A stretch of 64,000 bases of DNA, from NCBI GenBank assembly GCA_001972305.1, contig BDDD01000047.1, forward strand, positions 406,607 through 470,606, given 5' to 3'. The position numbers and the translations under genes were made by a program. The stretch is from Cephalotus follicularis (Eukaryota > Streptophyta > Magnoliopsida > Oxalidales > Cephalotaceae). Shown here in pieces: positions 1 to 49,868 of this stretch. Position 1 is the first letter of the stretch, and each line of letters starts with the position of its first letter. The notes below the pieces were generated by a model. That model saw nothing but the letters and a program-made list of their open reading frames with translations, was not told where the DNA came from and searched no databases.

Positions 1-1126
1 TGAAAATAGTACATGAGCAGTAAAATGAAACATGGATTCTCAGCAGGAATTCGACAGAATTTCAAGAAGCATAAAACATCAGTTAAAGTAGACATCTGAA
101 AGTTTCTAAAACATTAAACCATTAGAAATTTCATCAAGAAATGAACAAGATATGAATAAAACTATCTGCTACATAATTCGAAATAAAACAGGGGATACTT
201 TGGTGAAAATGGGTATAGAATTTCCTTGCTTTGCTTTAGATTTCCTTTTCTCCCTTCTCCTTTTGAATTCTCCACTTCACTCTCAGCAGAAGCGCTTCCC
301 TTCTCAGCCAAAATGACTGAATTCAGGTACCTAATGCCCATAAATAGGTTGATTACTTAGGGAGTAAGTCTCCCCCTCTCTCCCTCTCATGACTCATCTC
401 TCAAATTAACCATGTGCCTTAAATCCACCAATCAAATTGTGACACTTAGCATCTAAACATAAAATATCTGGCCTCCTTTCACCCTAGTCCGAAACTTGTC
501 CCATAATTAATAAATGTAACTCACAATAGGGCAAAAAGTTAGATTTTGTAGCTGATCTGATGGTTTGGGTGTCGACGCTTACGCATGGCGTTGACGTCTA
601 TGTCCTTGTGCGTTAACTTCAATGGTTCTCCGCGTTAACATCCAATGCTGTAGGCTGAAAAGTGTACTCATTCGTGTTAACGTCTAAACACGACGTTGAC
701 GCCTTCTAGTTTGATGTTGACGCTATTAAGGTTTCACGTTAACGTCTATATCCACTGTCTAAAATTGCACCTCTTGGCGTTGACGTCTTTCCCAAAGGCA
801 TTGACGCGTATATGCAATCCCTAGTATGTCGACGATAATAAACATCACATTGACAAGATTCATCGTGAAATGCCCAGAACCTGTGCTCGAACCCAGCATA
901 TTGACGTATATAACATAGGCGTTGACGCCAAAAAGACTGTTCTGCATATTTTGCCTGTTTTGATCCTACCATTTTGCTTGTATGTTTTGCTTAAGCAGGA
1001 CTCCCCGTCCGCTCACCGGGGAGCAGAACCTTAGGGTCATATCACGGGTCCCTTGAAATATTTGCCAACCTCAACAATGGCAACCATATTTCCATATAAC
1101 TTTAACAAAATTTTCTAGTCATTACA
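1..1126 (-). repeat. 3' LTR of element A (cut by window start)
   Basis: On the minus strand the LTR begins TGTAATGACTAG at 1126, directly after a purine tract, and continues beyond position 1. Its first 94 bases match 6072-5979 almost perfectly. The stretch 1-250 resembles 9890-10140 in the LTR of B, so A and B belong to one family. A TATA-like stretch lies near 338-347, aligned with the better TATA box of B. Confidence 0.85.
541..925. repeat. GTTGACGC-type palindrome cluster in the LTR of A
   Basis: About fifteen copies of a short motif related to GCGTTGACGTC or GTTAACGTC are scattered through this stretch, for example at 570, 588, 690, 708, 777, 798 and 918. Spacing is irregular. In element A the cluster lies upstream of the TATA-like region, so it is in U3. 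Most copies read TTGAC or TTAAC where other clusters in the window read TCGAC, as expected from CpG decay. Confidence 0.8.
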
Positions 1127-1141
1127 TTCTATCCTCCTTAC
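1127..1141 (-). other. Polypurine tract of element A
   Basis: The minus strand reads GTAAGGAGGATAGAA directly before the TGTAATG start of the 3' LTR. This is where plus-strand DNA synthesis is primed in LTR retrotransposons. Confidence 0.75.
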
Positions 1142-1164
1142 AAAAATTTTGTCCTCAAAATTTG

Positions 1165-1395
1165 TTACACATCAAACTCAAAAAGGTGAGGGTATTCCTT
1201 TCTCATTGTTTCTTCCAATTCCCAAATAGATTCTTTGACTCCATGATTTTTCCATAACACTTTTACTAAGGGAATTGTTTTTTTCCTTAGAATTTGCTCT
1301 TTATGATCCAGAATTTCCATTGGTTGTTCATCGTATGACAAGTCTTCATGCACTTGAATCGGTTCAACTCTTAAGACATGTGATGGATTGGCCAT
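1165..1395 (-). pseudogene. Chromodomain-like C-terminal tail of A integrase
   Basis: The frame gives 76 residues. It holds the block ILDHKEQILR, then KTIPLVKVLW, an ESIWELE segment and a final YPHLFEF before the stop. This is the tail typical of Tekay/Del chromovirus integrases, thought to steer integration toward particular chromatin. The same block recurs in K (ending 46111) and M (ending 61123). The frame is separated from the upstream integrase by frameshifts. The stop lies about 40 bases before the polypurine tract, the normal spacing for the end of pol. Confidence 0.85.
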
Positions 1396-2731: not shown

Positions 2732-2737
2732 GGCATC

Positions 2738-8911: not shown

Positions 8912-8978
8912 TTAAAGAAATCAGATCAGCAAACAATTCCACACAATTTATATCCTCAAAATATAGGAATAATCAACT

Positions 8979-8989
8979 CTCTGATACCA
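8979..8989 (-). other. Primer-binding site of B (initiator Met tRNA type)
   Basis: The minus strand reads TGGTATCAGAG, complementary to the 3' end of plant initiator methionine tRNA. It lies four bases after the LTR end (CATTACA). Confidence 0.9.
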
Positions 8990-10203
8990 AACTTGTAATG
9001 CTCCTCATCCGAGTTCGCTAAATGCTCAAAGCAAACTTCGAGGATTTGCTGCGTTACAGGGGGTGACGAATAATCATGTAACAATCTCGATGTTATATCA
9101 TGTTCAAAAAACTTCATAACTTCAAAATATACTTACCACTTTGAAGACTAAACCTTAGAATTGTCATACTCTTAATTTGGAAAACACCATATACTATAAC
9201 GATCATTTCTAATGTCTTTACATTTATACGTAAACCGTCATAATATATACATAACGAAAATATTAAATGATTACATCATAAAGCAGTTTATACATAACAC
9301 AATTGCTTCCAAAACATCTTTTACAAACTTCCTCTAAAGCTTGATATCCCACGTTCATCAATTTCCTTGAATTTTATTTGAAGATAAAAACATTAAAAGG
9401 AGTGAGCTCAAATAGCCCAGTAAGACTTTCATAATAATAATAAAAATATTTTATCACATTCATTTTTCTAATCATTTCTCGTAGATTAGAAACTTTTCAA
9501 ACAACCAAGGGGTTATATAAACTCAAAGAACCCAACCGAACCATTGCTTCACCGGGACATTATGCACTCCCCGATTACTATCCTTACGTCACATGCGTGT
9601 CCTCGAGAACTCTACGCTCTTAACATTATCCCTCTTTGGATCACAATCCAAGAGTTTTCATCTCAGTTCATTAACCTTTTGCATTTCATAAATCATTTCT
9701 CAATACTTTGAGTTTTCAACTCAAAGATGTTCACAAAATAGGATCGTAAAACATTTTGAAAATTGATATTTCATATAGAAGCATTCATTTATAAAGGAAA
9801 CATAAAACCATAAAGTTATAGCTAACATCTCAAAAAATTTCAGAATGATAAAGTTCATAATTTTTGGTTGAGAAACGAAGCTGCAACGAATTTTTAAAAT
9901 GGCTGTTGCTGCATGTAAGCAGAAAATGAGCAGTAATTTTCAATGAAATATTTCATCCAGAAATCAGCAACATCTCGAGATACATGAAACATAAAAGTTA
10001 TAGAGGACATCTTTAAGTTTCCAAAATAGTCAGACATTCAAATTTTCATTAAGAAACGAGAGAGATATGCTTAAATTATGTTGCTGCAAAATATCAGAAG
10101 TAAAACAGAGGAATGAAAGAGTAAGATTTTCCTTACTTTGATTAATCTCGTTTTCTCTTATTGAATTAACTCAGCAAATGTGACTATCCTCATGCCATTC
10201 AGG

Positions 10204-10215
10204 GTTATTTATAGC
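10204..10215 (-). promoter_or_regulatory. TATA box of the B LTR
   Basis: The minus strand reads GCTATAAATAAC about 740 bases into the LTR. It is the likely U3/R promoter element. No other strong TATA motif is nearby. Confidence 0.6.
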
Positions 10216-10487
10216 AACTAGAGCCACCCCCCCTCCCCCTCCCCCCCGTGCATGAGTCACCATACCCCTCCATCAAAATCATGCCACCTAGCATTCTAGT
10301 TGCCCATGTGATGATATTAGCATTTCTCTCTCTTTCTAGCTTGGTGACACATGTCATTCTCGTCATTCTAAGATTGACACTTGGATAAATATCTAGATTC
10401 ATAACTCCCTAACATGCCACATGTCCCGTAATCATAATCATTTATTCCCAAAGAGACAATTAAGCTAAATTCTTCAACTGGTTTGCA

Positions 10488-10860
10488 GGCAAAGCGCTGA
10501 CGCTTTGAAGTGAAGCATCGCCGCTTACGAGTTTCGTCATACACAAATTTCCATTTGCTTTCAAAGTGTCATTGTTTAAACTGAAAGCGTTGATGCATGA
10601 CTGCAAAGCGCTGCCGCTTTCTGATAAGTGTCATCGGTTGAAGGTGTTGCCAACTATGAAAACGTTCTGTTCTAAAGCGTCGTTGATAGGGGTACAAGCG
10701 TCGTTGGTTTACGACTTAAACGTTGCCGCTTTAATTAAACCGTCGGCACTTGAAGAGTACTTGCTTTGGCATCCAGGAATCTAGCTAACGCTTTGAGGCA
10801 TCCATCGACGCTTAAGCTAAACCATTGACGCTTTAAGCTAGGCAGTCAACGCTTAATAAA
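10488..10860. repeat. AAGCGTCGACGCTT-type cluster in the LTR of B
   Basis: About fifteen degenerate copies of AAAGCGTTGACGCTTT-like motifs occur here, for example at 10495, 10525, 10586, 10605, 10676, 10705, 10724, 10805, 10825 and 10848. The arms are AAGCG and CGCTT. The cluster lies in U3, upstream of the TATA box. Confidence 0.8.
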
Positions 10861-10956
10861 AAAAATGCAGAAAATAATGCAAAACGATATAGGATTTTAA
10901 GAAGAAATCTTCTATAACAATATTCCAACAACTTAATGGGAATTTCGGTCATTACA

Positions 10957-11228
10957 AAAACAGTTGTCTAGGCTCAAGGTGTCAATGTGTTCTCTTTGGC
11001 CTCGACGTTTATACGCAAGACTTTAGCTTCTCCAAGCTTCTTTCAATAACTTCGACTTTAATTCAATTTAGTCCGTCATTCATCTCAATTTCATTCAATT
11101 AAGCCCTTAACTTAACCCAATAACAACTATTTACTTAATTAATGGACAATTAAGCATAAATTTCAATTCAATGTATAATTTATTCATCATTTATAAAATA
11201 TACATTAAATTAAAAAATACGGTTATTA
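10957..11228. other. AT-rich flank of B, possibly a fragment of another LTR
   Basis: No gene is seen. The right end reads CGGTTATTACA, which on the minus strand is TGTAATAACCG, the kind of start seen in Tekay LTRs here. It could be a truncated minus-strand LTR, but no partner copy is in the window. Confidence 0.25.
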
Positions 11229-11804
11229 CAGACCCTGCACAATGTAAATTGGCGAGCGAGCCTACCCATCACAGGTTGGATTCCAATCCTTGCTAGGAGG
11301 TTGGACCTCCCGAGTTTCACATGGGGGTGTGAAATACAATTATAATAGTAGGAGGAACCATAAACACTAAAGACCAAGTGTTATAGTTGTCACATAAAAT
11401 CTGGAATATATGCTTACTCTTGCTTTTAATTTCCTTATCTTAGGTTGCTAGATAAGGCTACAATCACCCCTAATTCTTGAGACCATTTAACTCAAAGGGC
11501 TTTATTTTCTCAATTTGGCAAACGTACGCTAGGCAGCCTATCGGTAGTAGATACTGATACCTCACCTAAAGACTTGACCAAGGTGGCCAAGTAGTGCGAT
11601 GTCATTGTGTAGGCATGGTGCCTGACTACAGCACCAGTGTGAGAATATGGGGAATCTCTCTGAAATACCTCTCTAGGAGTTGTATGGCACATATACTAGG
11701 CCTATGAGGTTCAAATAATCCCGATAACTCTTTAGGAAGTGATAGTCCGAGGGAGCTATAGTCCATTGGAGTGGACTGAAGATGAGTGATTTAATTGAGC
11801 TAGG
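11229..11804 (+). other. Unresolved stretch before the gag of copia D
   Basis: No convincing protein or LTR end is seen. By position it should be the leader or the N-terminal gag of copia element D. A 5' LTR of D, which should resemble 21994-27427, is not visible, so D is truncated on the left. Confidence 0.3.
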
Positions 11805-12901: not shown

Positions 12902-13013
12902 TGTTGACTTTTAGTCTCAATCCTAAGTTTTAATGATTACAAATTTGCATTGAACTTTGTTACTTTATGTGCAAGAAAAGAAATAAACAAAATAAAGAAG
13001 TACAGAAACAGGG

Positions 13014-13285
13014 CAAAGCGCCGACGGTTACAATCAAAGCGTCAGCAGTTTGGTCCAAGGCGTGAACGCCTGAGAAGCGTATATCTGCGGTTAAAACCAG
13101 TCAAGTGCAAAATCAGTTGAAGAACTCAAAGTGGCGACGCTTGGGAGTAAAGCGTCAGCGCTTTATGCCAAAGAGTCGACTCCCAGATTAAAGCGCCGAC
13201 AGACAGTGCGAGAAAATTCAAAATTAACTCATAACGGTAACCTAAGCGCCGACGCTTTAGGCAACACCGTCGACGCTTTGGACGG
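13014..13285. repeat. AAAGCGTCGACGCTTT-type cluster in the 5' LTR of C
   Basis: Copies include AAAGCGCCGACGG, AAAGCGTCAGCAG, GGCGACGCTT, AAAGCGTCAGCGCTTT, AAGCGCCGACGCTTT and ACCGTCGACGCTTT. All are in U3, just upstream of the TATA box. The same cluster in the 3' LTR is at 16347-16612. Confidence 0.85.
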
Positions 13286-13395
13286 CTGGAACAATGACAG
13301 AATTCGTTTTAAAGAGCTGTTTTTTTTATGCAACAACTTTCAAGACTTCTCCAACGTCTATATTTCTTCACCAATGGCTAGAATCTAAATGAAGC

Positions 13396-13404
13396 TATAT
13401 ATAG
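13396..13404 (+). promoter_or_regulatory. TATA box of the C 5' LTR
   Basis: TATATATAG about 495 bases into the LTR. In the 3' LTR the same place reads TATGTACAG (16725-16733), so that copy of the promoter is damaged. Confidence 0.65.
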
Positions 13405-13947
13405 AGTTCAAGAAACAAGATTTAAGTGACTTGGAAAGACTTTGATGAACACACTCAAGAAGCTAAACTTTCACATCTACAAAGAGAAAGACATCAAGCT
13501 TTTGTTAACACTTTCATACCCAAAGCATGCAACTAGCCATCACTTTCATATCCAACCTTCAAGAGGTTATTTGTAAACACAAACAAATCCTTTTTATCAT
13601 TCATTGTAAAAGAGGGGAGTGAACCCTTGTAAGGTGTTTGATTGATTTGCACCCAGAACCCAAAATCAAGTGTAAGGTGGTTTTGCTTTGATTTGCACCC
13701 GCAAGCCGAAATCAAAGGTGGCTAGTGGTATCTAGTGGAAACTCAAGGGGTTCTTGAGATAGTAGACGTAGGCACGGATTTTGCCGAACCACTATAAATT
13801 GTTTGCACACTCTCTATCCCTTATCTCTTTTACTTACAATTGTATTATTTGTTCTTGTGTGCTTGTTTAGTTTCATATTCATAATTTAATTTGTTAGTTC
13901 CGCAAACAAATTTATTAATTAAAGGTTTCCATATAGGTCCCAACAAT

Positions 13948-16231: not shown

Positions 16232-17275
16232 TGTAGACTTTTAGTCTCAATCCTAAGTTTTAATGATTACAAATTTGCATTTAACTTTGTTACTTTCTGT
16301 GCAAGAAAAGAAATAAACAAAATAAAGAAGTACAGAAACAGGACAAAGCGCCGACGGTTACAATCAAAGCGTCAGCGGTTTGGTCCAAGGCGTCAACGCC
16401 TGAGAAGCGTATATCTGCGGTTAAAACCAGTCAAGTGCAAAATCAATTGAAGAACTCAAAGCGGCGACGCTTGGGAGTAAAGCGTCAGCGCTTTATGCCA
16501 AAGAGTTGACTCCCAGATTAAAGCGCCGACAGACAGTGTGAGAAAATTCAAAATTAACTCATAACGGTAACCTAAGCGCCGATGCTTTAGGCAACACCGT
16601 CGACGCTTTGGACGGCTGGAACAATGACAGAATTCGTTTTAAAAAGCCATTTTTTTATGCAACAACTTTCAAGACTTCTCCAACGGCTATATTTCTTCAC
16701 CAACGGCTAGAATCTAAATGAAGCTATGTACAGAGTTCAAGAAACAAGATTTAAGTGACTTGGAAAGACTTTGATCATCTACACTGAAGAAGCTAAACTT
16801 GCACATCTACAAAGAGAAAGACATCAAGCTTTTGTTAACACTTTCATACCCAAAACTTGCAACTAGCCATCACTTTCATATCCAACCTTCAAGAGGTTAT
16901 TTGTAAACACAAACAAATCCTTTTTATCATTCATTGTAAAAGAGGGGAGTGAACCCTTGTAAGGTGTTTGATTGATTTGCACCAAAAACCCAAAATCAAG
17001 TGTAAGGTGGTTTTGCTTTGATTTGCACCCGCAAGCCGAAATCAAAGGTTGGTAGTGGTATCTAGTGGAAACTCAAGGGGTTCTTGAGAAAGTGGACGTA
17101 GGCACGGATTTTGCCGAACCACTATAAATCGTTTGCACACTCTCTATCCCTTATCTCTTTTACTTACAATTGTAATATTTGTTCTTGTGTGCTTGTTTAG
17201 TTTCATATTCATAATTTAATTTGTTAGTTCCGCAAAAAAATTTATTAATTAAAGGTTGCCATATAGGTCCCAACA
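16232..17275 (+). repeat. 3' LTR of element C (1044 bp)
   Basis: It starts TGTAGACTTTTAG and ends GGTCCCAACA, followed by the TSD GTGTG at 17276-17280. The length equals that of the 5' LTR. Several differences from the 5' copy are C/T or G/A changes at CpG sites in the motif cluster. Confidence 0.95.
16347..16612. repeat. AAAGCGTCGACGCTTT-type cluster in the 3' LTR of C
   Basis: This is the counterpart of 13014-13285. Motif copies are collinear with those in the 5' LTR. GTCGAC in the 5' copy is GTTGAC here, and GACGCT is GATGCT in one unit. Confidence 0.85.
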
Positions 17276-17570: not shown

Positions 17571-17916
17571 CCATCCTGATAAATACAAGGTATTTGTTAC
17601 ATATGGTGCTATGATCCTAGAGAGGGAGCGCCCTTTTCAAGGAATCAGTGGATGCTGAATGAAACTCTACGAATTGCCATAGGTACAAATCATGCAAGAT
17701 GTAAAGGAATTAGAGGTTTGATCCTCTATAGACACAGTTGAGATTGGATCTTAAACTTAGATTAGATCTCAGTCAGGCACTCCTCTGATGAAAACTTAAG
17801 GCGAGATTTTATCAGCACTTAAGAGAAATGGTTTTCTCTTCAAAGGCATTGAAGAATCCAGTGTCATCAAGGATGACAAGCCTGTCAGCTATTAGAAGAC
17901 AATGCGAGGCACTGAA
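17571..17916 (+). pseudogene. Copia D, linker and start of reverse transcriptase
   Basis: Little is conserved until 17871-17916, where DDKPVSY, a stop, then KTMRGTE matches the copia segment just before reverse transcriptase. The reading is cut at 17916 by E and continues at 20618 with TEFKAWLGAMKS. Confidence 0.55.
17912..17916. repeat. Target-site duplication CTGAA, left of E
   Basis: CTGAA before TGTTGGGAACC is repeated at 20618-20622. Joining the two sides restores the D reading. Confidence 0.8.
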
Positions 17917-18707
17917 TGTTGGGAACCGATGAGAGGGGTTCTAAGCGCAGCAGAAGTAGAAAACATATAAACATCTCAATTATGGGTATTAGGTGTATAG
18001 GGTGATCAATTTTAATTTTCAATCGAATGATTAATCCCTAAGCAATGGGATACCCTAACCAATGTCCACAATTGTCCCTATGAGGCCAAGGAACCCTAAT
18101 AGAGCATCTAGACAAACCACACAACTGATCCAAGCAAAAGGGAAAACCGGTTTGGAGTGAGGATTGCTGGAAATCCTTACTTTGGTCGCATACGATTGCC
18201 CTAAGGAAACACACACAAACCCTAAGCAATAGACCCACAAACCAGAGCCAAGATCAATCCCAAACCCTAAGGGATCACAACGGTTCCTCCAAAAAACCAG
18301 GGGGTTCAGCCAAGGGATGAAAAAGCTTAGCCATAACCCCAAAACACCATGCTATACACCTTAGCATGCAGACCACCACAAGACAAACAAAATGCACACA
18401 AAAGTTCAACTTGGAACCCTAGCCCCAATCTGAAACCACAGAGGAGGGAACAAGAAATTATTACCTCAAGTGATGGCGCATTCCTTCAAGAGCTCCCTCA
18501 TCACTTTAATCCCAAAACTCCATGGAAGCTCCAAGCTTCTCCTTAATCCACGCATAAGGAAGAAGATGATGGTGGTGTATGTGTTTAACCTACACTAAAA
18601 CTCTATAGGTAAAGATAAGATGCAAGGTACAAATTATCTCCACCTATATTGAACATTGAGGGGTGAAAGGAGGGTTGAAAATGGAGTCTTCTTCATCCAG
18701 GAGATAT

Positions 18708-19275
18708 TAATGTCGATGCATGCTCTCCATGGCGTCAACGCCTACATGGGATCAGACAGAGAGAGAAGAAAGAGAAACTCATAGCAAGAGGACAGAGAGA
18801 GAGAGAGAGAGAGAGAGAGGAAGTCAAGTTGTGTTTTTCAAAATATGACCTCTTGTCTTATATGCCATTTTGTCCTCACTCATTAAATGCTCAAAGTCCA
18901 CTCTTTGGCTTGTTGAGCACACTTCCCATTTCCCACAAACTTCTCTCAACTAGTGAGAATGTCGTGTGTCAGCACAGCATGGCATCAATGCCTAACGTCT
19001 CATCCTACCGTGGCGTCAACGCCAACGATAAGATGAAACAGTCGTTATTTCTCTTCCTTACATAGCGTCAACGCATGCTCTTCATGACGTCAACGCATAA
19101 ACTCTCTGGATTCCATGGCGTCAACGCATGCTCTCCATGGCAATGACGCGATGTATTCACCTATCATGGCGTCAATGCAATGCTCTTCATGGCGTCGACG
19201 TGCAAGGATGGATAAGAATTTCTCTCTCTTCCCATATTGGCGTCAACGCATGCTCTTCATGGCGTCGACGCGTGT
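18708..19275. repeat. GGCGTCAACGC-type cluster in E
   Basis: Roughly a dozen copies occur: 18712, 18730, 19010, 19063, 19085, 19117, 19165, 19190, 19240 and 19260 are the clearest. The common form is ATGGCGTCAACGC, with CATGCTCTCCATGG or similar as spacer. A TATA-like GTCTTATA on the plus strand (18855-18862) sits inside the range, so most copies are in U3 and a few are just downstream. Confidence 0.8.
18789..18821. repeat. GA microsatellite in E
   Basis: A run of GA dinucleotides follows a purine-rich stretch. It is a simple repeat inside the LTR. Confidence 0.8.
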
Positions 19276-20617
19276 GATAAGATGAGACACTCTCTTTCAT
19301 ACATTTCAACCATTTGCATGGAATATTTCATTGTGGCTTTGCATGGACCTTTATCAAGAAAATGAAATACTCACCAGCAAAGCAATATCTCCCTGATGTT
19401 ATCCTTTCACTAAATGACAGGTGTACCATACACGTGTCAACCTGTTCAATGTTAGGTAGGACCCGGAAAGCCTGGTCGTTATCCGGTACGCTGATAAATT
19501 TCTCAGAACATCTCGAGTTTTGGTAAGACTATCCTATTAGTCCTCTTGACTATTCACAAGATGGCCTTGGTGTGAGCTTTCATAACCCATGGATCCGTCT
19601 TTTACCTCGTATATCAGTCAATAACAATACAGCCAGTGCTTTAAGCCTGTGTTTGGCGTATGTGTCATGTATCCCTCATCACTATTGACTCCGACCATGG
19701 ACTAAGGTGTGGATTAAATGTCCCCCCTACAAATACTACGACCATATAAATCTGTGAACACATTGTGACTTCGGCGGATATCCCCAGAGTCACCCGATAT
19801 CCAATCCGCCTAAGCCTGGCCAGGTCTTTCAGTCAACAATGGTCAAGATCATATAGAGCCATTCATCCATCATTACGGGTGTGATGATTCCATATTGCGA
19901 ACATTGCCCATACGTCTCAATGTAGCTTTGACATGACCCAAAGAAAACCCTTTTTCCAGCACGTGGCTAGTGCTGGGGAAGGCGAAAATCAAAGCCATGC
20001 AGTCACTCAGGTCTAAGGATACAAAGTAGGCTAAGACCTACTAGTCACCATATACTATACACTACTTAAAACAATAGGGATCCTATCAACAAGGGTAATG
20101 TCCATCCAGATAGGTCACCTATGGTAGGTCGGTTCAGTATCATGCACATGCACGTGCCCCGCATAAGATTTAGTGCCATCCAAATGGCAATGAGAGAAGC
20201 CGTCCTCCAAATGAGGGAGCAAGCATAATATGGCAAGTCTTTGTAGTTCATCAATTTCCCAGAAAGTGAACCTATGACTTGGAACTTCTGTCTAAAGGGA
20301 CTAAGGATCTTGTTCTCAATACCTCTCTAGGCATAAGATCCAACCTCTCGGTAATAGGGCGCTATACATGTACTCAGTTGACATGGTGACCAACTGATCC
20401 GCTTTTGACGGTTTGGGATATTACATATATCCGGTTTGCCATTGTGAATATATATGCACAATTGAACATAACTGGAACATAGAATGTAGGATAAGAGTGT
20501 AATGTACATATATGCAGCCAACCATAGTCTTGCATGGATTATTGCAATTAAGGAACATATCAAATATGTACACACATTTACCCCTTTCATGGCTTGCAGG
20601 GACACACAACTCCAAAA

Positions 20618-21981: not shown

Positions 21982-21993
21982 CAAGTGGGAGAT
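21982..21993 (+). other. Polypurine tract of copia D
   Basis: CAAGTGGGAGAT directly before the LTR start TGTTTGAG. Confidence 0.7.
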
Positions 21994-24405: not shown

Positions 24406-24410
24406 CGCCA
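24406..24410. repeat. Target-site duplication CGCCA, left of G
   Basis: CGCCA before TGTAATGCCCG is repeated at 27085-27089 after GGGTGTGACA. Confidence 0.9.
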
Positions 24411-24592
24411 TGTAATGCCCGATATTTCCCTATGTCGTAATTTCACAATGTAATGTGTTTTATTGTGGAATTAATAAAAGAATTGGTTTCCAAGGCTTTG
24501 ATGATGTTTTCCAAAGTCTAATAATGTTAAATTTTGGAATAAAATGTTAAAGGGATGTTTGAAGGGTAAAACGGTGCTGTTTTTGGAGAAAC

Positions 24593-24742
24593 ACGTCGAC
24601 ACCTTTCGAATCACATCGATGTCCTTGAACCAAGGGGCGCACGTAACTGCATGCACATGCACATCGATGCAGGCGAGGACATCGATGCCCTCGTGTAAAA
24701 AGCTAAAAGATGTCGACGTCTTTTAAGAAGACGTCGATGCAT
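24593..24742. repeat. First CGTCGACG cluster in G
   Basis: Six or seven copies, for example ACACGTCGACACCTTT (24593), ACATCGATGTCC, ACATCGATGC (twice), GATGTCGACGTCTTTT (24712) and AGACGTCGATGC (24729). It lies about 180 bases into the LTR, in U3. Confidence 0.8.
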
Positions 24743-25494
24743 TAACATCAAATGTCAGGCACGTTATTCTGTTGACAAATAACATGCAAAGGGGAACTTT
24801 TTAGGGCCATTTTCCAGGTGCCTTGGGACGTGGACGATACGTGTTGAGCATGCTAGCTTGATGCCAGGCATGCAGATGCTAGAATGGAAGGAAGGGCATG
24901 ACACTTGGGTGTGCATGCTGGCTGTGGTGCCACCTTCAACGTCTGCTCCTGCAAAAGAAAGGAGGTAGAGCTGGGAAAGAGGGGCGAATGGGAAATGGAG
25001 CCTGTGAGATGCATGCAATGGGCCAGAGAGGGAAGAGGGATGTGAGACTAGCATAAAACGCCTCCTCTCTTCATCCCTGGTTCGGCTAAAACACCAGTGT
25101 AAGAAACAGAGAGTGAAGCAGAGCCATTATTGAACTGAGTTGGAGCTTGGAGCTTGGAACTGGTGGCTTGCAGCAATGGGAGGGACCTAGAGGCTGCCGT
25201 GACCAGTTTGGAACGCAAAGAGGTGGACTTTCCAGTTCCTAACGTGGAACAAAAGGTAGGGGAAGCCATAACTATAACCTTGAGATTAATATTCATGCAT
25301 GGTCTATGGTTTTGGTGTATGAAATGCATGATTACTGAGTTGATTTTGGTCACTGGATTGATGCCATAATATGCTAGATATGTGATGTGTATCTGCATGT
25401 GGGTTTACTGCCTTGATTACCTGTTATTGTGCATGGATATGGTTTGTAATGGCCACTGTCTGTTATGTTGTGAGGAAGAAGACGACTGTCACGC

Positions 25495-25802
25495 GAAACA
25501 CGTCGACGCCTTTTGATAACGTCGACGTCTTTGGGTCTTTTGCTTGGTTACTGATGTGAAATGGATCGACGTCTTTGGAAGGACATCAACGCCTTAGGAC
25601 GACGCCTAAGGTTCCCACCCTAGCACGTTGACGCTGTAAACAATACGCTGACGTTTTAAGGTTCCAGACCTTGAGTGTCGATGCGTATGATGGACATCGA
25701 CGTCTTTAGACAGCAGAACGCGCTGACACTAAGGACTTGGACATCGACGTTAATGGACAAAGACATCGACGCCTTTTGGTTAGACATCGATGTCTTTTGG
25801 GT
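25495..25802. repeat. Second CGTCGACG cluster in G
   Basis: About fifteen copies of ACATCGACGTCTTTGG-like motifs: 25499, 25516, 25565, 25585, 25625, 25648, 25677, 25695, 25722, 25742, 25763 and 25785. It is about 1.1 kb into the LTR, downstream of a weak CATAAAAC TATA-like site at 25052, so probably in R or U5. L has its cluster at the same relative place. Confidence 0.85.
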
Positions 25803-27427
25803 ACTGTTTGGAGGTTGCTTCATCTAACGATACGAAACGATCCCGATTTCTGTTAGGGTGCATTTGAGCATTTGTATGCATTGCACATACACTGTTTACT
25901 GCCTGTTTGTGTACTGTTTGTAAATTGTTTATGATTTCTAAAGATATGATATTTAGAAATGCATATGTGAGCTCGGAATAGGCTATTTTGAGTATGAAAA
26001 TATGTAAACGATTTACACTACTGATTTGTTCAAGGTAATTCAACTACTGAAAAATAAATTTTCAAATATTATCACTTTTAAAATATTTGAAAAGAGAATT
26101 GCCTGTTGTCGATCTAAACGATCACCACCGTACTGTTACTGCACTGTTTACTGCCTGGATTCACTGTTTGCTCTGTGTTGCTCTGTGAATTGTACTGTGA
26201 TTGTGCTTGAGCCACTAGTTGCATGGCGGAGACTGCCAGCGCCGGCTAGTGGTAGGGTTGACCTAGGGGCCAGGAGTTAGCTGGGTGACTCACTATACTA
26301 TACTGTTGCCTTGGTCGGTTACCTAGAGTAGGGACCGGAGTGGGAGTGTAGCGTGGGGCCAAGAGTTGGCGGCGTTACAGATACTGCCTGACTGTTGTGG
26401 TCATTTGTGGACATACTGCACTGCCCGTTGGTCCTTTTCGGACATTACTGTGACTGTGGATGTGATCCTGGCCGGATCACTACTGTACTGTTCTTGCATA
26501 CATATATTTCTTATATATGTACCCACTATTATTTTACTGTACTACAAAATATATATATATTCTCATACATATATAAACAGGTATTACCTGCACTGTATCA
26601 TTTATGCATACATTACATGACATGCATTTAATATTGATCTCGAACTCCCTTTATGACTTAGCCGAGTGAGGACAAAGGCTAACCCCTACTTTACAGATTG
26701 ATACAGTGGACCGGTTGGACTGGCATGGGCGAAGGACAAGATGTTATGATGTTCTGTTCTTGGTTTCACTTTTCTCCTGTTTTGTAATAAACAGGGTTTT
26801 GTTTAAGGACTGCTGATGTATCGTTCTTATGTTTTGTTAACGATGGGACTTAATCTTATACTGTTTTCACGCTCCGTTTTTGTGGGCTTTTAACATGATG
26901 GACTTGTTTTGGGTAGCGTGCAGTATGGGATGCACGTTACATGTGTTTCAGCTTATGTATCTTATGCTTCCGCAACTGATATCTGTTTAAAGGTTTAAAT
27001 TTTATGGTATTTGCATAAGCTGGATTTATATGTTAATTGCCTTTATCACCTTTATGTGTGTCTACCGGAAAACGGGGTGTGACACGCCAAGTTGGAGGAG
27101 CCAAAGCTTGGAGCTAAGATGGGTGTTCATCACGTGTGAAGCAGGAGGCCAAAGATGGTGGAGCCTCCATTTTTTGTATAATTCCAATCCTTATGTTTTT
27201 ACCACTTCATATTTATTTATGCCGAATTGGATTCAGTTTTGTGTTTGGGTGCCTTACTAGTTGCAATTGTTCAATTGAATATTAATCGGATATCATAGGG
27301 ACATTGATTTTGGTAGTAGGATGTTAGTATGTTCCTTGACTTGGAGTCTTGGATGTTTTAAAAGTTAAAATTATAGCTACTAGCATCCTAGGCACAAATC
27401 GACAAAAATCCCAGACGTTTTCCAACA

Positions 27428-33116: not shown

Positions 33117-33859
33117 TGATAAGCATAAAAATGTGTTATTTTTAATGACTTATTTATGATATTTTTATGCTTGGAGTAGACTACTGTGGTGGTATTTATT
33201 TGATTTTTAGGTATTATCTCATTATTACGGAATAAAAGAAAATGGAGCTAAAACGTTACTTTTCAAGTTAAAGTGGTTTGAAATCAAAGATCGGTTAAAG
33301 AGTGCACCCACTTAAGCGAGAGAAGTCAAAATTTAAAGCTCGGAAGATATTGAATATTGGGCTCATTTTGTTCATAAAATTATTTGGAGCACTTTTAATT
33401 CTTGGGCCAGTTCATTCTGAAGTTCCGATGAAGAGATATTGTAAGAAAACAAATGTTGAAGTATGTGGAGCCCATTGATGACATCACCATGACATCACTC
33501 TCCATATTTGCAATTCTTTCACGCTGCATCAGGTCTTCAACCATGCAATCAGCCCAGCATCCAACATGCAATCCATGCGCACATGTCCAGTCCATGCGCA
33601 TTACGCATAAGAAGGCCATACATCAAATCTCCTACATCCAACAAATCAACGCCAGCAGCCCACATGCATGCATATATCTTCAGTCAAAACGCCAAAAGCA
33701 AAGCAGCCCAAAACGCCTGCATGCATTCAATAAGCCCACGAACCAATCAGTGACGCCACAAGTCCATGCAACCCAAGATCATCATGTGCCAAATACACTG
33801 TCAAATGCGGAAATAAAATTAAAAGAGGGACCACGTTGCTTTAGGTTTAGGCGGCGGCT

Positions 33860-36383: not shown

Positions 36384-36401
36384 TCCCCGGCAACGGCGCC
36401 A
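36384..36401 (-). other. Primer-binding site of I (Asp tRNA type)
   Basis: The minus strand reads TGGCGCCGTTGCCGGGGA, complementary to the 3' end of plant aspartate tRNA, the usual Athila/Tat primer. It lies six bases after the LTR end. Confidence 0.92.
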
Positions 36402-36767
36402 AAAACTTGTTCACTGTTAAAAAGAATGTTTTAAAATTTATAGCTGCAAGTGCATGGATCATGCAGTAACGGGTCGAACGCAGGGAAACGTAAACTCGTT
36501 GCAATCTATCCAACCTAGGCGAAGTATGCCAATTTTAAGAGATAAACTAACTAAAACTACTCCTAATTATGCAAAGTAAAATAAATAAACAAAACAAGAA
36601 TTTAAGACTTTGAACTCGAAATACTAAGAAATAAAACATGCAATGAATAAAAGTAAAGAGAATATATAATAATGAAACGGTTTTAGGGTATAGAAACTCA
36701 CCGTAGATTGTATTGAACAATTCCATTGAGTTGAACGATCATACCTTGATAAACAACGAGAGCTAGG

Positions 36768-36925
36768 TCTATACGGAGTACGGCGGTGATGACAAGATGT
36801 ATGAGTAGACATGCTAGGTCTATACGAAGTACGGCAACGATGACGGCAAGACGTATGAGTAGACATGCTAGGTCTATACAAAGTGTGTTCATTGCGACAA
36901 ATCGTATGAGTAGACTCCGTTGAAT
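36768..36925 (-). repeat. Three-unit tandem repeat in the LTR of I
   Basis: GCTAGGTCTATAC occurs near 36768, 36820 and 36869, each followed by related sequence ending GTATGAGTAGACT or similar. Units are about 50 to 57 bases. Confidence 0.8.
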
Positions 36926-37302
36926 TAAGCACCATTTATTCACCAACTTTAAGCTTCACTGACAAGATGTTTGTGGATTTTAATCAGACAGACAAGGTGT
37001 GTGTGAAGGCAGAAATATTGAAGAACAAATCAAATATTCAAGGATTTTTATTGATGGAATTGAAACAATAACAATCTAGGCTTGTTCTTCCCTAAAACCT
37101 TGGAAAGTTTAGCTACTAAACATTGTAAAACAAAACAAAAGAGAAATTAGGGTTCTTTAACCTCTCTACTACTCTACTTACATGTTTCTGGCCGAAATAA
37201 CATTGTTTTTATACTACACAATTGATCAAAAATGGAAGAAAAGCAATCCTAGTTACAAAATATGGCAAAAATCTAATCTTTCTATTTCTGCTGCAGAGGA
37301 GG

Positions 37303-37652
37303 GTGTCGACTTCTTTTGAAAGGCGTCGACTTCTTTTGATAAAAATCTCGACTTTTTGATATGCGAGTGAAAGGCGTCGACTTCTTTTGTGAAAGACGTA
37401 GACTTCTTTTGCTCCAAAAGTTACAGGTCTTATTGGCATAAAGACGTCGATGTTCATGTTTAAAGACGTCGACTTCTTTCTCATAGCTCTTTGAAGATTG
37501 TTGCATTTTTCCAGAAAAGACGTCGACTTCCAAAGAAAGACGTCGACTTCTTTTCTCCAACCAAGAAATGTCATCGATACTTTATGAAAGGAGTCGACTT
37601 CTTTGATGTAAACCCAGAAAAGACATCGACTTTTAAGGAAAGGCGTCGACGC
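37303..37652. repeat. GACGTCGACTTCTTT-type cluster in the LTR of I
   Basis: About thirteen copies, mostly AAGACGTCGACTTCTTTT or GGCGTCGACTTC, for example at 37305, 37325, 37375, 37402, 37442, 37464, 37520, 37538, 37590, 37620 and 37640. In minus-strand sense it is in U3, upstream of the TATA-like site. Confidence 0.85.
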
Positions 37653-37934
37653 TTTTGATCTGTTTTCTGCAGAATTTGGCATTTCTTCAATCTTTATACT
37701 TTAAGCTCCAATTTTGCACACTTTTGGGTAGTATTCTTGCACTTTGGTCATTTAGCACTTGTACCTGAAAATCATTAAAACACAACCAAAGTAGTCTATT
37801 CCAAGCATAAAAATATCACAAATAGAAGATTAAAAACAACACAATTTTATGCTAAACAAAAATCTGTTTTGATGATTTATTGTTAGTAGCTTTATTTCAT
37901 CTATATCATGCAATATTTTTCTATGTGATTGAAC

Positions 37935-38495: not shown

Positions 38496-38947
38496 AAGTT
38501 CTTGATGAGATCAAGATGTGAGAATTGAAATATCGGTAAGCTTTATTCTTAAATCTTACTGGTCGTAGGATTAAATACTCAGGCCATACTTAATCCAATA
38601 AGACCAGCACATAGTATGCCAGCTCGTATAGAGGGTGACTGATCTCACATGTTATCTTGTAGAGACAAGGGTAATACATATGAGTGAATGAGTTCACTGA
38701 AACTGACCAGCTAAATGGAGTGCCTGTATAAAATTTTTACTGTACGTCAAACAAACATTCCTAAAAGCAGCAGTGCGACAGTGGTCCTTAGACATTAGCA
38801 ACCATTGATAACCTGTGCGTAGGATGTTGTGCTTTAATAATGCTTACATGTGTCTCCTAACCACGAGGAGTATACAGGTACTGATTGGGTGTGGCATGCG
38901 TGTGGAAGTGATAAGTGAGTGTGCAAGAATGGATCCACTACTCCCAG
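38496..38947 (+). repeat. LTR of copia H, second part
   Basis: This sequence follows the second GAACC of J and runs up to K. No gene is seen. It is assigned to H because J is a precise insertion with a TSD. Confidence 0.65.
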
Positions 38948-39639
38948 TGTGACGACCCGAATTCCCTTTTGTACTGTTCATGCATACATCGTACCATATT
39001 ATACCGTATTGGACAGTACTATATTGTATTGAACTGAGGTATTCTTATACCCATTGACTTTGTTTTGGTTATGCATGTATAGTCGAGATTTTGGGCTGAG
39101 TTTCAGAGAGTTGATTGAATCGACTATTTAAGTCAATTCCTTGTCATTTCTCTCATTTCTCACCATTCATCCTCCTCTCTCTATCCTTCTTCCTCTCTCT
39201 CTAGCTGAGCAGCCTCCATCTTCCGCCTTTGCAGCCCCGGATTGCATCTCCATCGACAAGGACAGCGATTGCAAGTAGTGGATTGGTGATTCAACGGCAT
39301 AGTAGCGGTTTGAGTGATTGGAAGCTCAACTTTTGAAGCTTCAGTGATAGGTAGGACTTTTTAATTGAATTGCCTACCTCCTGTATTGATTGAATGATTG
39401 ATTGTACTGATTGAATGACTGATTGAATGATTGAACTGAGTGCATTGGGGTTTTTAGGGTTTATATCAAACCATTGACCTAATTGTTGATTAAAGGATTG
39501 AATTTGAATTTGGAAGGTTGTAACTAGTCTTACTAACCTCAAATGATTGATTGTAAACTTTGGTTTTCAAAGAATGGCTTTGAATTGGATTTTGACTTGA
39601 GATTGGCCCTATTTTCTACATAAAATCGACTTTGCCCGA

Positions 39640-39972
39640 AAAAGACATCGCCCTTAGCCCAAAGACGTCGATGTCTTTCTCATCTGAGTGCTATAACCTT
39701 GATTCTGCAGCAAAGCCATCGACGTCTTTCAAAGACATCTACGTCGTCGCCTCGAGATGTCTCTCCCCTGGAAAGACATCGATGCCGAACATCGATGCGC
39801 ATTCTCAGGCTATTTTTATTGAAAAGCATCGACGCCTTTCTCCAAGGACATCGACGTCTTTGGCCAGATCTCCACACAAAGAGGGAAAGACATCGATGTC
39901 TTTCAAAGACATCGACGTCTTTCCACCGTTTTAAAGAGGAGTCGATGTCTTTCACCAAAGACATCCATGCCT
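39640..39972. repeat. AAAGACATCGACGTCTTT-type cluster in the 5' LTR of K
   Basis: About fourteen copies; several are near-perfect 18-base palindromes, for example at 39661, 39714, 39771, 39824, 39845, 39888, 39906, 39936 and 39957. It lies about 500 bases downstream of the TATA-like site, probably in R or U5. The whole block is missing from the 3' LTR. Confidence 0.9.
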
Positions 39973-40084
39973 AATGTACTAAAAGGAGTTTTTAATTGTT
40001 TTAAAGATGGTTTTCAACTTCTTTTCACATTGCCACTTGGCTAGAGCCTCACTTGAGGTGTTCAAGTGTTTGAAAATAGTTTTA

Positions 40085-40325
40085 ATGATTGTATTGATCG
40101 ATTGATTGCTTGATTCATGAGTGTTGTTGTGAGTCTAAGTCGGTAAAATGGACGCACGTTTCCATCCCTCCATTAGACAGCACCACTTATCAGCCTTGCT
40201 CCGACATTGTATTGATACATTGATCGATTGCTTGAGTCGTGAGTGTTGTTGTGAGTCTAAGTCGGTACGATGGATGCACGTTCCCATTTCTCCATTAGAC
40301 ACCACCACTTATTGACTTTACTTAA
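40085..40325 (+). repeat. Two-unit tandem duplication (121 bp) in the K LTR
   Basis: GAGTGTTGTTGTGAGTCTAA occurs at about 40128 and 40249, each followed by ATTAGACA and CACCACTTAT. The 3' LTR has the same pair near 46782 and 46903, so the duplication predates the insertion. Confidence 0.85.
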
Positions 40326-41339
40326 TGTTGGATTGACTCGATTGAACGATTGATTGTATTGTATGGATCCTATAGAGCGACCTTGTGGTTTACATCAACA
40401 TGTTAGGTTGACTTTGTCCACCTATACCATTGACCATTTCTTTTATTGTATTGTCTTACTGAGGAGCATGTGCTGACAAGGACGATTGATTGACGATTGA
40501 CGCTTGCTGAGGGCCGTAGCTCCCTAACGGCATCAGTAGCTCCCTCAGTTGTAGCTCATCGAGATTGTATTGGCCCAGCCATAGGCTGGAAGATCTATGC
40601 GTTCTAGACCTAATCAGTCTGAGAACCGAAGATATATCTCCCACCCTTTTTGAAGGACTACCTTCCGTGGGATTGATCACTGATAACTAATTGACATTGA
40701 ATTCACACCTGTCACACGCTCTATAGGATATTGATTGATTGATTGGGTGTTTCATACACCACAACTGAGTGTCGGCCATTGATTGATTATTATAGATCCT
40801 ATCCGTATGCTCTGTTATGGGCCATTGTCATACGGGTAGTCTGATAGCCAATTGTACATGTACATTTGCCATGTCATGCATTGATATTGTACACCGCACA
40901 TTGATATTGTATAGATTGTCACCGATATTGCACATTGTACATGCATACATGCTGCATGGGGTTTCTGCTTAGCCAGTGTGGCTAACCCCATCCTTCGGGA
41001 TGGGCTTGTGTTGTACCTTTGTGTGCGGCATAGGTAGGGCAGCAGGTAGCAGTGGACAGAAGGACTGAAGACCCATTGATCGCACGACTGCTTGGGCATC
41101 GCAGAGCTGATTGAGACATTGTAGTGAAAGGATTGATTTGATAATGTATTGTAAAAGACTGGTATTGTAAAGGATTTGTATTATATGGATGAATTTGTAT
41201 TGTATCTTCCATAAATGTTATGTATTGCAAATTTTTATGTTTTTCCGCATTTCTATATTGCTAGTCCCGACCATTGTATTGTGTAATGGATTGAGAGTAA
41301 TGCCACGTGTCCGCCCTGCGAGCGCGGGGTGTTACAGTA

Positions 41340-44740: not shown

Positions 44741-44746
44741 TAGATA

Positions 44747-46111: not shown

Positions 46112-46151
46112 TTGATCGATTGACCGATGAATCTGGGGACTAGATTCTTTT

Positions 46152-46164
46152 AAGGAAGGGAGAA
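46152..46164 (+). other. Polypurine tract of K
   Basis: AAGGAAGGGAGAA directly before TGTGACGGCCTG, the 3' LTR start. Confidence 0.85.
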
Positions 46165-47920
46165 TGTGACGGCCTGAATTCCCTTTTGTACTGTTCATGC
46201 ATACATCATACCGTATTGTACCATATTGGACCGTACTATATTGTATTGAATTGAGGTATTCTTATACCTATCGACTTTGTTTTGGTTATGCATGTATAGT
46301 CGGGATTTTGGGCTGAGTTTCAGAGAGTTGACTGAATCAACTATTTAAGTCAATTCCTTGTCATTTCTCTCATTTCTCACCATTGATCCTCCTCTCTCTA
46401 TCCTTGTCCCTTTCTCTATAGCTGAGCAGTCTCCATCTTCCACCTTTGCAGCCCCGGATTGTATCTCCATCGACAAGGACAGCGATTGCAAGTTGTGGAT
46501 TGGTGATTGAACGACATAGCAGCGGTTTGAGTAATTGGAAGGTCAACTTTTGAAGCTTCAGTGATAGGTAGGACTTCTTACTTGAATTGCCTGCCTCTTG
46601 TATTGATTGAATGATTGATTGTACTGATTGAATGATTGATTGAATGATTGAACTGAGTGAATTGGGGTTTTTAGGGTTTATATCAAACCCTTGACCTAGT
46701 TGTTGATTAAAGCATTGAAATTGAATTTGAAGTTGAAAACAGTTTTAATGATTGTAATGATCGATTGATTGCTTGAGTCATGAGTGTTGTTGTGAGTCTA
46801 AGTCGGTAAAATGGACGCACGTTTCCATCCTTCCATTAGACACCACCACTTATCGGCCTTGCTTCGACGTTGTATTGATACATTGATCGATTGCTTGAGT
46901 CATGAGTGTTGTTGTGAGTCTAAGTCACAACGATGGACGCACGTTCCCATTTCTCCATTAGACACCACCACTTATTGACTTTACTTAATGTTGTATTGAC
47001 TCGATTGAATGATTGATTGTGTTGTATGGATCCTATAGAGAGACCTTGTGGTTTACGTTGGCATGTTAGGTTGACTTTGTCCACCTATTCCGTCGACCGT
47101 TTCTTTTATTGTATTGTCTTGCTGACGAGCATGATTGATTGATGATTGACGCTCGCTGAGGGCCGTAGCTCCCTAACGGCATCAGTAGCTCCCTCAGTTG
47201 TAGCTCATCGAGATTGTATTGGCCCAGCCATAGGCTGGAAGATCTATGCGTTCCAGACCTGATCAGTCTGAGAACCATAGATAGATCTCCCACCCTTTTC
47301 GAAGGACTACCTTCCGTGTGATTGATCACTGCTAACTAATTGACATTGAATTGACACCGGTCGCACGCTCTATAGGATATTGATTGATTGATTGGGTGTT
47401 TCATACACCACCATTGAGTGGCTGCCATTAATTGATTATTATAGATCCTATCCGTATGCTCTGTTATGGGCCATTGTCCTACGGGTAGTCTGATCGCCAA
47501 TTGTACATGTACATTTTCCCTGTGATGCATTGATATTGTACACTGCACATTGATATTGTATAGATTGTCACCGATATTGCACATTGTACATGCATACATG
47601 CTGCATGGGGTTTCTGCTTAACCAGTGTGGCTGACCCCATCCTTCGGGATGGGGCTGTGTTGTACCTTTGTGTGCGGCATAGGTAGGGCAGCAGGTAGCA
47701 GTGGACAGAAGGACTGAAGACCCGTTTATCGTACGACTGCTTGGGCATCGCAGAGCTGATTGAGACATTGTAGTGAAAGGATTGATTGGATAATGTATTG
47801 TAAAAGACTGGTATTGTAAAGGATTTGTATTGTATGGATGGATTTGTATTGTATCTTCCGCAAATGTTATGTATTGCAAAGTTTTAAGTTTTTCAGTATT
47901 TTTATGTAAACGACTACTTG
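46165..47920 (+). repeat. 3' LTR of element K, cluster block absent, end missing
   Basis: It follows the 5' LTR closely until about 46727, skips the equivalent of 39510-40072, and follows it again until about 47920. The last ~90 bases (equivalent to about 41250-41336) are absent: L sequence starts instead. The end is approximate because similarity fades over 20 bases. Confidence 0.85.
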
Positions 47921-49868
47921 GAAAAACCAGAAAACAAAAACACAAGGAAAACAAAAAGAAAACATAGAGAAACAGAAGAGGAAGCATCATATTTCTCCAT
48001 TTTTGAACCAGTACAAAAGCTTGGGAGCTTGGAACGTGGAGTTGTACCTGGTTAGAGCTGCTGGGCCGGATTTGGAGCTGTTGACAAGCTCGAAAACTAC
48101 TGGTCAGTGGCCTTAAAGAGGTGGACTTTGATTCATAACTTGGAATCTAAGGTAGGGATTTTATAAACTTAATTTTGAGTTCAATAATGGTAGATGATCA
48201 TTCGATAAGATGCATGAAGATTGTGATTTTGTAGACTGTACAATGATGATTGTTTACCATGTATAGATAATATGCTATGCATATGGTGTTTTGAAATGAC
48301 ATTGGATTGAATTGCATGTATTGCATGCTTGATTCTACTGGTTTTTAGGATGAGTTGGAGAAGACGATGTTTCTGGTCTTCTCTAACCGTCGATGCTTAA
48401 AGGATAAGCGTCGACACTTTTAACTATTATACGTTATAAACGTTGATGCTTAGGGAAACCGTCAACGCCTTTGTTCATTGTGCATGGAATCGGACGCGTG
48501 AAACGTTGACGTTTAAGGTTCCTACCTTAAAGCGTCGACGCTATCGAGTAAAGTGCTGATGCTCAAGGATCCTTGCCTTGAAGCGTCGACGTCGAGAGAC
48601 AAATTGTTGATGCTTAAAACTTTTGCTTAAAGAGTTGAAGCTAAGGATTAAAGTGTCGACACTTAAAAGACACAAGCGTCAACGCCAAGGGTAAAACGGC
48701 GATGCTTAAGTGACTGGTTTGAAAGTTGATACTGAGACAGTACACGTTGATGCCAAAAGACCCCTGTTTGCATTTTGAGTATATGTTTGCTTGCATATTG
48801 TTATGGATTGAATTATTGATTGGATTGTTATTGACTTTTAAAATGCTTCACCATTTTGGAAAATGCATACATGATTTTAAAGAAATCATTATTTTACATG
48901 AACTATTATATTTCAAAGGACTGAGTATTATTTTCAAGGATTGGATTTATATTTTGAATAAATGTAAGTATTCAAGTATTTTATAACTTATAAATTACTT
49001 GAAACGGATTGATTTTTTTATTGATTGTTAGATTGTGATTGGGATTGTTGTCGTATTAGTCGCGTGGCGGAGCTTACCATTGACGGCTAATGGCAGGTTT
49101 GGGCTCTAGGTGCCAGGAGAATTCTAGGGACACCCATATTGATTACTTAGGCACCGTGCAAGTAACATGGATTGTTGACCTGCTTCAAGTCGGCTGGAGA
49201 TAGGGCTGGAGTAGGAGTAGGAGTACGACGTCGGGCCCAAGAGATGGCGACGCTCTTCGTACGGATGGATTGATTGATTGGTCCTTTGTGACATGACTGG
49301 TGGATTGTGTTGATGTAACCACTTGGCATGGTTGCTCATATATCGGCCCATATTCACGGTGCATTCATTACATGGTATTTATTATAGTTGACCCCAAAAT
49401 ACTTTTATATCTTTCCTACTTAGCCAGTGGATTCGGCTAACCCTATCAATTTCATATTGATGCAGTGGGATTGATATGGACAAGCGTGGCGAAGAATAAA
49501 GTTGTAATAATGTTAACTGATGGAATCGTATTTCCTTTTGGAGATTGTTAAATTGTTATCAATGGATTAATGTTATCGTAATTGATGGATTTCTGTATTG
49601 ATTGGATAATGTTTTGATCACGCTCCGTTTGAGGGCAATTAACGATGGAATATTTGTATTATGGTTGGACAATTAGTAACATGTAATATGGGATGCATGT
49701 TACGTATTTTAATTCGGCTTATGTTTGAATGCTTCCATAAGATATTAATTGATTTTGAAAAGTTTTAATTTTTCTTCGTTTCCAAGAAGCTGAATATATA
49801 TAAATATATGTTAATTGCCACGACCTCTGGATGTTATATTACATGTTGTGAGAACATGGTGGACAACA
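47921..49868 (+). repeat. 5' LTR of L, start missing
   Basis: It aligns with G from about 25080 to 27084: CTTAAAGAGGTGGACTTTG, the cluster, GCGTGGCGGAG (49063) and GTTAATTGCC near the end. It ends GGTGGACAACA right before a PBS. U3 is missing, removed together with the end of the K LTR. Confidence 0.75.
48388..48752. repeat. AAGCGTCGACGCTTAAGG-type cluster in the LTR of L
   Basis: About sixteen copies, for example at 48391, 48408, 48437, 48460, 48505, 48533, 48550, 48582, 48605, 48655, 48678 and 48697. It sits where G has its second cluster, but the arms are GCG...CGCTTAAGG rather than GAC...GTCTTTGG. Confidence 0.88.

Follow-up and report, generated by a model that had tools for sequence, protein, structure and literature searches.

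Paired palindrome arrays of three subtypes in the long terminal repeats of gypsy and copia elements of Cephalotus follicularis

The analysed stretch, a window of 64,000 nucleotides from the Cephalotus follicularis genome (assembly GCA_001972305.1, contig BDDD01000047.1, positions 406,607 to 470,606 of the forward strand), holds long terminal repeat (LTR) retrotransposons with dense arrays of short palindromes in their LTRs. LTR pairs were identified by comparing the window with itself, and the array-bearing hosts (A, B, C, E, G, I, K and L) are gypsy elements of the chromovirus type, Athila-like elements and copia elements. On our reading of the coordinates, A is a minus-strand gypsy element nested in the related element B, and the LTRs of the two are 68% alike over about 250 bp. 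Copia gag pieces were found in C, and gypsy gag, reverse transcriptase or integrase pieces in K and in a further element, M, where a chromodomain match falls slightly under the Pfam cut-off. Host I adjoins a perfect primer-binding site (PBS) of the tRNA-Asp type, which we take to be a mark of Athila. A polypurine tract at a relative faintly suggests that E is a copia element. The LTRs of G and L are homologous in three pieces, 59–70% alike, spanning about 1.8 kb.

The original prediction, made from the letters of the window, had listed ten palindrome clusters in these LTRs, and all ten were present (Table 1). A joint palindromic 16-bp matrix, trained on 107 sites with the second C copy among them, has a consensus near AAAGCGTCGACGCTTT. 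At a score of at least 8, it matched 100 times in 24,377 bp of LTR, three times in 24,212 bp of internal sequence and four times in the remaining 15,411 bp, with LTR borders that were hand-drawn and, at the outer ends of I and L, uncertain. That is, 100 of the 107 matches in the window lie inside LTRs; the clusters within elements form dense arrays in non-coding parts and none lies in gag or pol, as had been claimed, and clusters are not equally common outside LTRs. Moreover, matrices from which one host had been left out recovered the held-out clusters 97- to 455-fold over background in 8 of 8 hosts, at cut-offs of both 8 and 10, bearing out the claim that one motif family is found in the LTRs of unrelated groups, here gypsy, Athila-like and copia.

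Additionally, a decay-tolerant 8-mer had 62 matches in or within 10 bp of the clusters (3,370 bp) and 27 elsewhere in the window, and dinucleotide shuffles of each cluster gave means of at most 0.5. With this 8-mer, C1 (one match) and I (two matches) did not exceed the largest shuffle (two), because their variants differ from it. The favoured variant is not the same from cluster to cluster; an unsupervised motif search per cluster returned AAAGCGTCGACGCTTT-like palindromes in B and C and other phases in the remaining seven. A single older repeat hit by all the insertions was rejected as the source of the motif, since the arrays lie within LTR borders and both C LTRs carry the array within their own. 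Two extra sites, at 10976 and 10996 (20 bp apart), stand just beyond the B LTR within 10957-11229; after them, the sequence near 11229 resembles another LTR start, and they possibly belong to an older array that B interrupted when it inserted. A protein search with the open frame spanning array I returned 40 candidates, none of them at an E-value of 10 or better.

The place of the arrays in the LTR also agreed with the prediction. With TATA-like boxes read by eye, the arrays of A, B, C, E and I and the first array of G (G1) lie upstream of the box, and those of K and L and the second array of G (G2) lie downstream of it. The three downstream arrays begin about 235–290 bp past a common AGGTAGG, a possible 5' splice site likewise read by eye. 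Array-free LTRs were also found: the 5' and 3' LTRs of M have zero and one match, respectively, and the 3' LTR of K has none, its array having gone through a deletion of about 550 bp. The deletion junction lies within TTGATTGA-like repeats, and the end of this LTR is absent too. Two relatives of the E LTR, in the orientation opposite to it (21991-22631 and 28681-29908), are without a cluster.

Table 1. Palindrome arrays of the window and the LTRs that carry them
Feature	Position	Strand	Subtype	Remarks
Array A	541..925		gamma, GGCGTTGACGCC-like	in 3' LTR of minus-strand gypsy element, about 200 bp in; precedes TATTTATG box
A 3' LTR	1..1126	-		runs off the window; begins TGTAATGAC after polypurine tract
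Array B	10488..10860		alpha, AAAGCGTCGACGCTTT-like	upstream of CTATAAATA near 10214
B LTR	8994..10956	-		tRNA-Met type PBS at 8978-8989, one mismatch
Array C1	13014..13285		alpha	in copia 5' LTR 12902-13945; TATATATAGAG follows downstream, near 13395
Array C2	16347..16612			array of C1 repeated in copia 3' LTR 16232-17275
Array E	18708..19275		gamma	main part 18979-19275
E solo LTR	17917..20617	-		flanked by target duplication CTGAA (17912-17916 and 20618-20622; by-eye reading)
Array G1	24593..24742		beta	upstream part of G LTR
Array G2	25495..25802		beta	about 240 bp past AGGTAGG (possible 5' splice site)
G LTR	24410..27085	+		TGTAATGCC...GTGTGACA; relative of L
Array I	37303..37652		beta	upstream of TATAAAAA near 37215
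I Athila-like 5' LTR	36403..37720	-		tRNA-Asp type PBS at 36385-36401, 17/17; outer border 37720 is a guess
Array K	39640..39972		beta	downstream of TATTTAAG near 39125
K 5' LTR	38946..41337	+		K 3' LTR 46165-47905 without array
Array L	48388..48752		alpha	about 235 bp past AGGTAGG
L LTR	48115..49865	+		G-homologous part; ends before PBS-like TGGTATCAAAGT at 49870, two mismatches; start approximate

Within the arrays, the sites are paired. For 89 of the 98 window sites, another site lies 19–23 bp away; 2,000 random placements preserving span, number and a 17-bp minimum gave 45.6 such sites on average and 64 at most. A genome sample, made up of 20 stretches of 10 kb that came from separate contigs at regular contig numbers and were picked before inspection, showed this for 220 of 271 sites (random mean 124.8, maximum 159; 2,000 placements). 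Genome-wide, pairs of the exact core CGTCGACG were counted at spacings of 19–32 and 34–40 bp and numbered 18,048 at 19–23 bp, 396 at 24–27 bp, 3,493 at 28–32 bp and 689 at 34–40 bp, or 3,610, 99, 699 and 98 per bp of spacing, whereas a reversed control core gave 31, 14, 11 and 3 pairs. Many of the pairs listed at 34–40 bp have a spacing of 38–40 bp, which is two short steps summed. The per-bp counts are thus high near two and three turns of B-DNA and low at the spacings in between.

Cross-scoring of the cluster matrices separated three groups, alpha (B, C and L; consensus AAAGCGTCGACGCTTT), beta (G, I and K; AAAGACGTCGACGTCTTT) and gamma (A and E; GGCGTCAACGCC), array A being almost as near to G2 as to E. 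Alpha and beta each span two host lineages, as does gamma if E is a copia element, and the homologous LTR pairs A/B and G/L carry unlike subtypes. In addition, a K-like LTR in locus L022 has a gamma array at the position where K has a beta array. Of the 33 clusters in the genome sample, 15 were nearest to alpha, 10 to beta and 8 to gamma, several by small margins. Across 42 arrays from window and sample, which have 730 site halves, the triplet CTT was counted at 4 bp from the centre in 188 halves and at 5 bp in 167, but rarely at 3 bp (1) or 6 bp (11). GACGTC is typical of one subtype only: the proposed ACGT-core bZIP site fits beta and is absent from the alpha and gamma consensus, and it was rejected as the common core. 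The motif may also resemble W-box, CRT/DRE, RWP-RK or ocs sites; a literature search on RWP-RK motifs yielded nothing helpful.

The observed/expected CpG ratio is 1.97 in sites, 0.57 in linkers and 0.41 in 400-bp flanks. Therefore, the CpG density that had been noted belongs to the motif alone and not to the region. In the beta arrays of the window, the centre CpG is retained in 0.67–0.92 of sites and the outer CpGs in 0.27–0.58; in A and E, the corresponding values are 0.12–0.20 and 0.75–0.80. The altered cores of A are TTGA or TTAA in 8 of 9 sites and never TCAA, and those of E are mostly TCAA (8 of 12) and never TTGA. Among ten gamma-labelled arrays, centre retention is 0–0.25 in seven and 0.50–0.71 in the other three. 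Centre and outer CpGs vary oppositely between beta and most gamma arrays, and the CpG/TpG variants largely track subtype. Random decay alone would not produce this opposite pattern and would hit both strands, unlike the changes in the cores of A and E; the earlier view of the T/A variants as purely random CpG decay was therefore dropped. Between the two C LTRs, transitions were counted at 5 of 52 array CpG positions, 2 of 20 CpG positions after the array and 1 of 220 non-CpG array positions, all small numbers. An unmethylated CpG island was likewise rejected, given the ratio in the linkers and the transitions at the usual rate of the LTR in the C array.

The letters between the sites behave differently from the sites. 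Identity between sites of one array is 0.50–0.88 within the site, 0.43–0.49 at the adjoining base and mostly 0.26–0.34 beyond it (expected 0.257), with small rises, up to 0.42, farther out. Linker identity is 0.25–0.36 in A, B, C, G1, G2 and L and 0.40 in E, I and K, near background overall, indicating that most arrays are not plain tandem repeats. The distances between site centres are kept, and the linker letters are largely free. Satellite and minisatellite arrays consist of short units that vary between copies; the Cephalotus arrays are likewise made of short units, but they keep sites and distances and mostly not linkers. Tandem Repeats Finder reported pieces of 38–150 bp within arrays B, G2, I and K; in arrays A, C, E and L it reported no repeat whose period approaches the spacing of the sites. 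A minisatellite or tandem repeat was rejected as a full account, because the unit and linker are not repeated as a whole, although this is partly so in the reported pieces and in the E linkers.

Five copies of the K family (K, L009, L014, L010 and L032) were compared in ten pairs. Their arrays match up site by site, and in all ten pairs the sites have diverged less than the linkers at non-CpG positions (slightly so in K/L009). In the pair K/L032, which is free of motif-based selection, this divergence is 0.123 in sites, 0.176 in linkers and 0.234 in flanks. Insertions or deletions of more than 1 bp within these arrays comprise a 12-bp deletion in L010 and a 12–13 bp insertion in L010 and L032, about one helix turn in size and amounting to two events only.

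The motif is abundant in the whole assembly (1,577,397,061 bases), in which AAAGNCGTCGACGNCTTT occurs 236,822 times with up to two mismatches, compared with 1,353 times for its reversed control. The genome sample had 296 matrix matches, against 41 in the reversed sequence, and 33 clusters of at least four sites. Matches to 18 retrotransposon protein queries covered 18,743 of its 200,000 bp and overlapped none of the 33 clusters and 3 of the 296 sites. Sequence like the window LTRs was near 34.8% of the sample sites and 18.3% of random positions, and internal-like sequence alone was near 3.0% and 10.5%, respectively. The other 61.8% of the sample sites were near neither, so that LTR location is supported for a minority of the sample sites only. 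Three short gene stretches (L038–L040) gave 0–1 matches each, too few to judge genes, and six viral contigs gave 1–6 each against 0.45–1.9 in shuffles, with three matches inside 140 bp in one of them (L005). In loci L024, L007, L012 and L013, two or three separate arrays lie inside about 1.5 kb, as in G. The two-turn pairing, the three subtypes and the genome-wide scale go beyond the original prediction, whose author knew of no prior description; among the literature matches listed, none describes the motif or a shared LTR code.

Each cluster may be regarded as an array of putative sites for a sequence-specific DNA-binding protein. We consider that the arrays are probably cooperative sites for a family of dimeric DNA-binding proteins and act as LTR enhancers. 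One palindrome of 16–18 bp would be read by one dimer, and two dimers would be bound side by side, about two helix turns apart and less often three. The palindrome, the kept centre distance, the largely free linkers and the discrete specificities together point to a dimeric protein in side-by-side pairs, and the position in U3 or the leader points to transcription. From their positions ahead of the LTR TATA box or within the transcribed leader, the arrays would most likely raise LTR transcription. The three subtypes might reflect at least three related binding specificities, probably those of paralogous host transcription factors. Unrelated elements would have gained their arrays independently or by exchange, which may be their origin, and would have rebuilt them when the useful specificity changed. 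More broadly, and only tentatively, many LTR retrotransposon lineages of Cephalotus might have converged on or exchanged one modular code, in which paired 16–18 bp palindromes stand two or three turns apart and three specificities are swapped in place.

Several observations weigh against this enhancer reading or narrow it. Element M does without an array and, with zero and one match in its LTRs, indicates that the code is not universal. The likeness of the linkers in E, I and K suggests that local duplication took part there. In the K family, sites are less diverged than flanks in just seven of the ten pairs, the three exceptions all involving L010; the pairs are not independent of one another, and L009, L010 and L014 were picked for an exact motif match, a bias toward intact sites. 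The two CTT registers are helped by the site-finding matrix, which rewards C at both, and in the genome-wide counts many pairs come from copies of the same families and are not independent events. Longer gaps in the window show weak phasing at 10.5 bp (25 of 2,000 and 23–27 of 1,000 randomizations; 0.01–0.03), yet as the best of all periods this comes to about 0.07–0.11, and the genome sample gave 183 of 2,000 (0.09) for gaps of 26–80 bp and 451–695 of 1,000 (0.45–0.70) for gaps of 25–80 bp. Helical phasing of the longer gaps is thus weak in the window and unconfirmed in the sample, and strict long-distance phasing within arrays is unsupported. Finally, judging from the C LTR pair, the motif CpGs appear to decay after insertion like others, and inserted copies seem to be methylated at the arrays as elsewhere in the LTR; the sites would then be maintained by turnover of active copies and not by absence of methylation.

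The main rival, which we hold to be rather unlikely, is that the arrays serve anti-silencing: a protein made by or taken from the elements would bind them and remove silencing marks, as VANC proteins do for VANDAL elements in Arabidopsis, and the three subtypes would be three diverged protein-target pairs. VANC targets are described as dense short motifs arranged in arrays in non-coding regions and introns of the element, with C-type and T-type variants that change together (PMC5735166, PMC10398659). The Cephalotus arrays are similar in their density in non-coding parts, in their discrete subtypes in U3 and leader, and in the different subtypes of K and L022 at the same LTR position. However, the VANDAL motif is the non-palindromic YAGTATTAY, and VANC21 motifs are given as lying in one orientation in tandem repeats and as dense in one DNA transposon family only (PMC5735166), whereas the Cephalotus sites are 16–18 bp palindromes with paired spacing and mostly unlike linkers, common to gypsy and copia LTR elements. 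Neither motifs of one orientation in homologous tandem repeats nor density confined to a protein-tied family was found, as the linkers are near background outside E, I and K and the hosts are gypsy, Athila-like and copia. Moreover, a scan of 30 open pieces, which cover the elements partially, revealed no additional gene, and the CpG decay in the C LTR pair, small as its numbers are, speaks against removal of silencing at the arrays.

The logic of the arrays clearly resembles both that of VANC targets and that of the BII boxes of the tobacco copia element Tnt1, but membership of the VANC type would seem to fail for want of a same-orientation tandem repeat and of single-family density. The BII boxes are U3 repeats described as binding defence-induced factors and as probably mobile between copies via template switching (PMC3316501, PMC2923131). 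In the passages cited, they are few in number and belong to one element family, with no code common to unrelated families. In Cephalotus, repeated sites ahead of the TATA-like box, as in boxes of the BII type, are seen for A, B, C, E, I and G1 but not for K, L and G2. Palindromes at retrotransposon insertion sites, as treated in the part of the source cited, concern the choice of target and not the content of LTRs (PMC6911290).

Growth as a neutral minisatellite, or the spread of a short functionless sequence between elements by template switching, is improbable. Template switching probably moved an extra BII repeat between Tnt1 copies (PMC2923131), and the tandem pieces in B, G2, I and K and the alike linkers of E, I and K would suit such growth, but linkers near background with the spacing kept, arrays A, C, E and L without a repeat of near-site period, and the lower divergence of sites than linkers in the K family argue against it. 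Equally doubtful is a family of host repressors that recognises the arrays and silences the elements. A single motif family on many unrelated elements would make a good defence target, but elements would then benefit from losing sites, whereas K-family sites are less diverged than linkers (with the selection bias noted above), and homologous LTRs bear arrays of other subtypes. A hairpin or processing signal in the retrotransposon RNA, as the original prediction also considered, is very improbable and was rejected, because the better-than-shuffled folding of 8 of 9 sense strands (z of −2.4 to −8.0) comes free with self-complementary repeats, array A has a z of 0.0, site halves show no covariation beyond cluster composition (0 of 9 clusters at 5%; lowest 0.062, cluster I) and six of nine arrays are placed ahead of the TATA-like box.

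If the tentative common code is real, a small family of trans-acting proteins, either host activators or VANC-like anti-silencers, would jointly control much of the retrotransposon content of a 1.6 Gb genome, and elements and proteins would be caught up in a race over specificity across element lineages. A cis-code common to unrelated elements would have a measurable grammar of palindrome, register, distance and subtype, and the regulation of many retrotransposons in a single plant could be tested through one class of DNA site. It would raise the questions of how elements acquire promoters, whether the benefactor protein is common to them and how hosts respond, and the pairing rule tells biochemists which probe could find the candidate protein.

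Other repeats were observed around these elements. A tandem repeat of about 100 bp forms two arrays (27426-28671 and 31152-31635), about 74% alike, that flank a stretch without clusters. In the Athila-like LTR, a tandem repeat with a period of 54 bp (36762-36884) lies between the TATA-like box and the PBS, and an inverted repeat of about 95 bp, 82–84% alike, stands around this element at 33117-33213 and 37762-37858.

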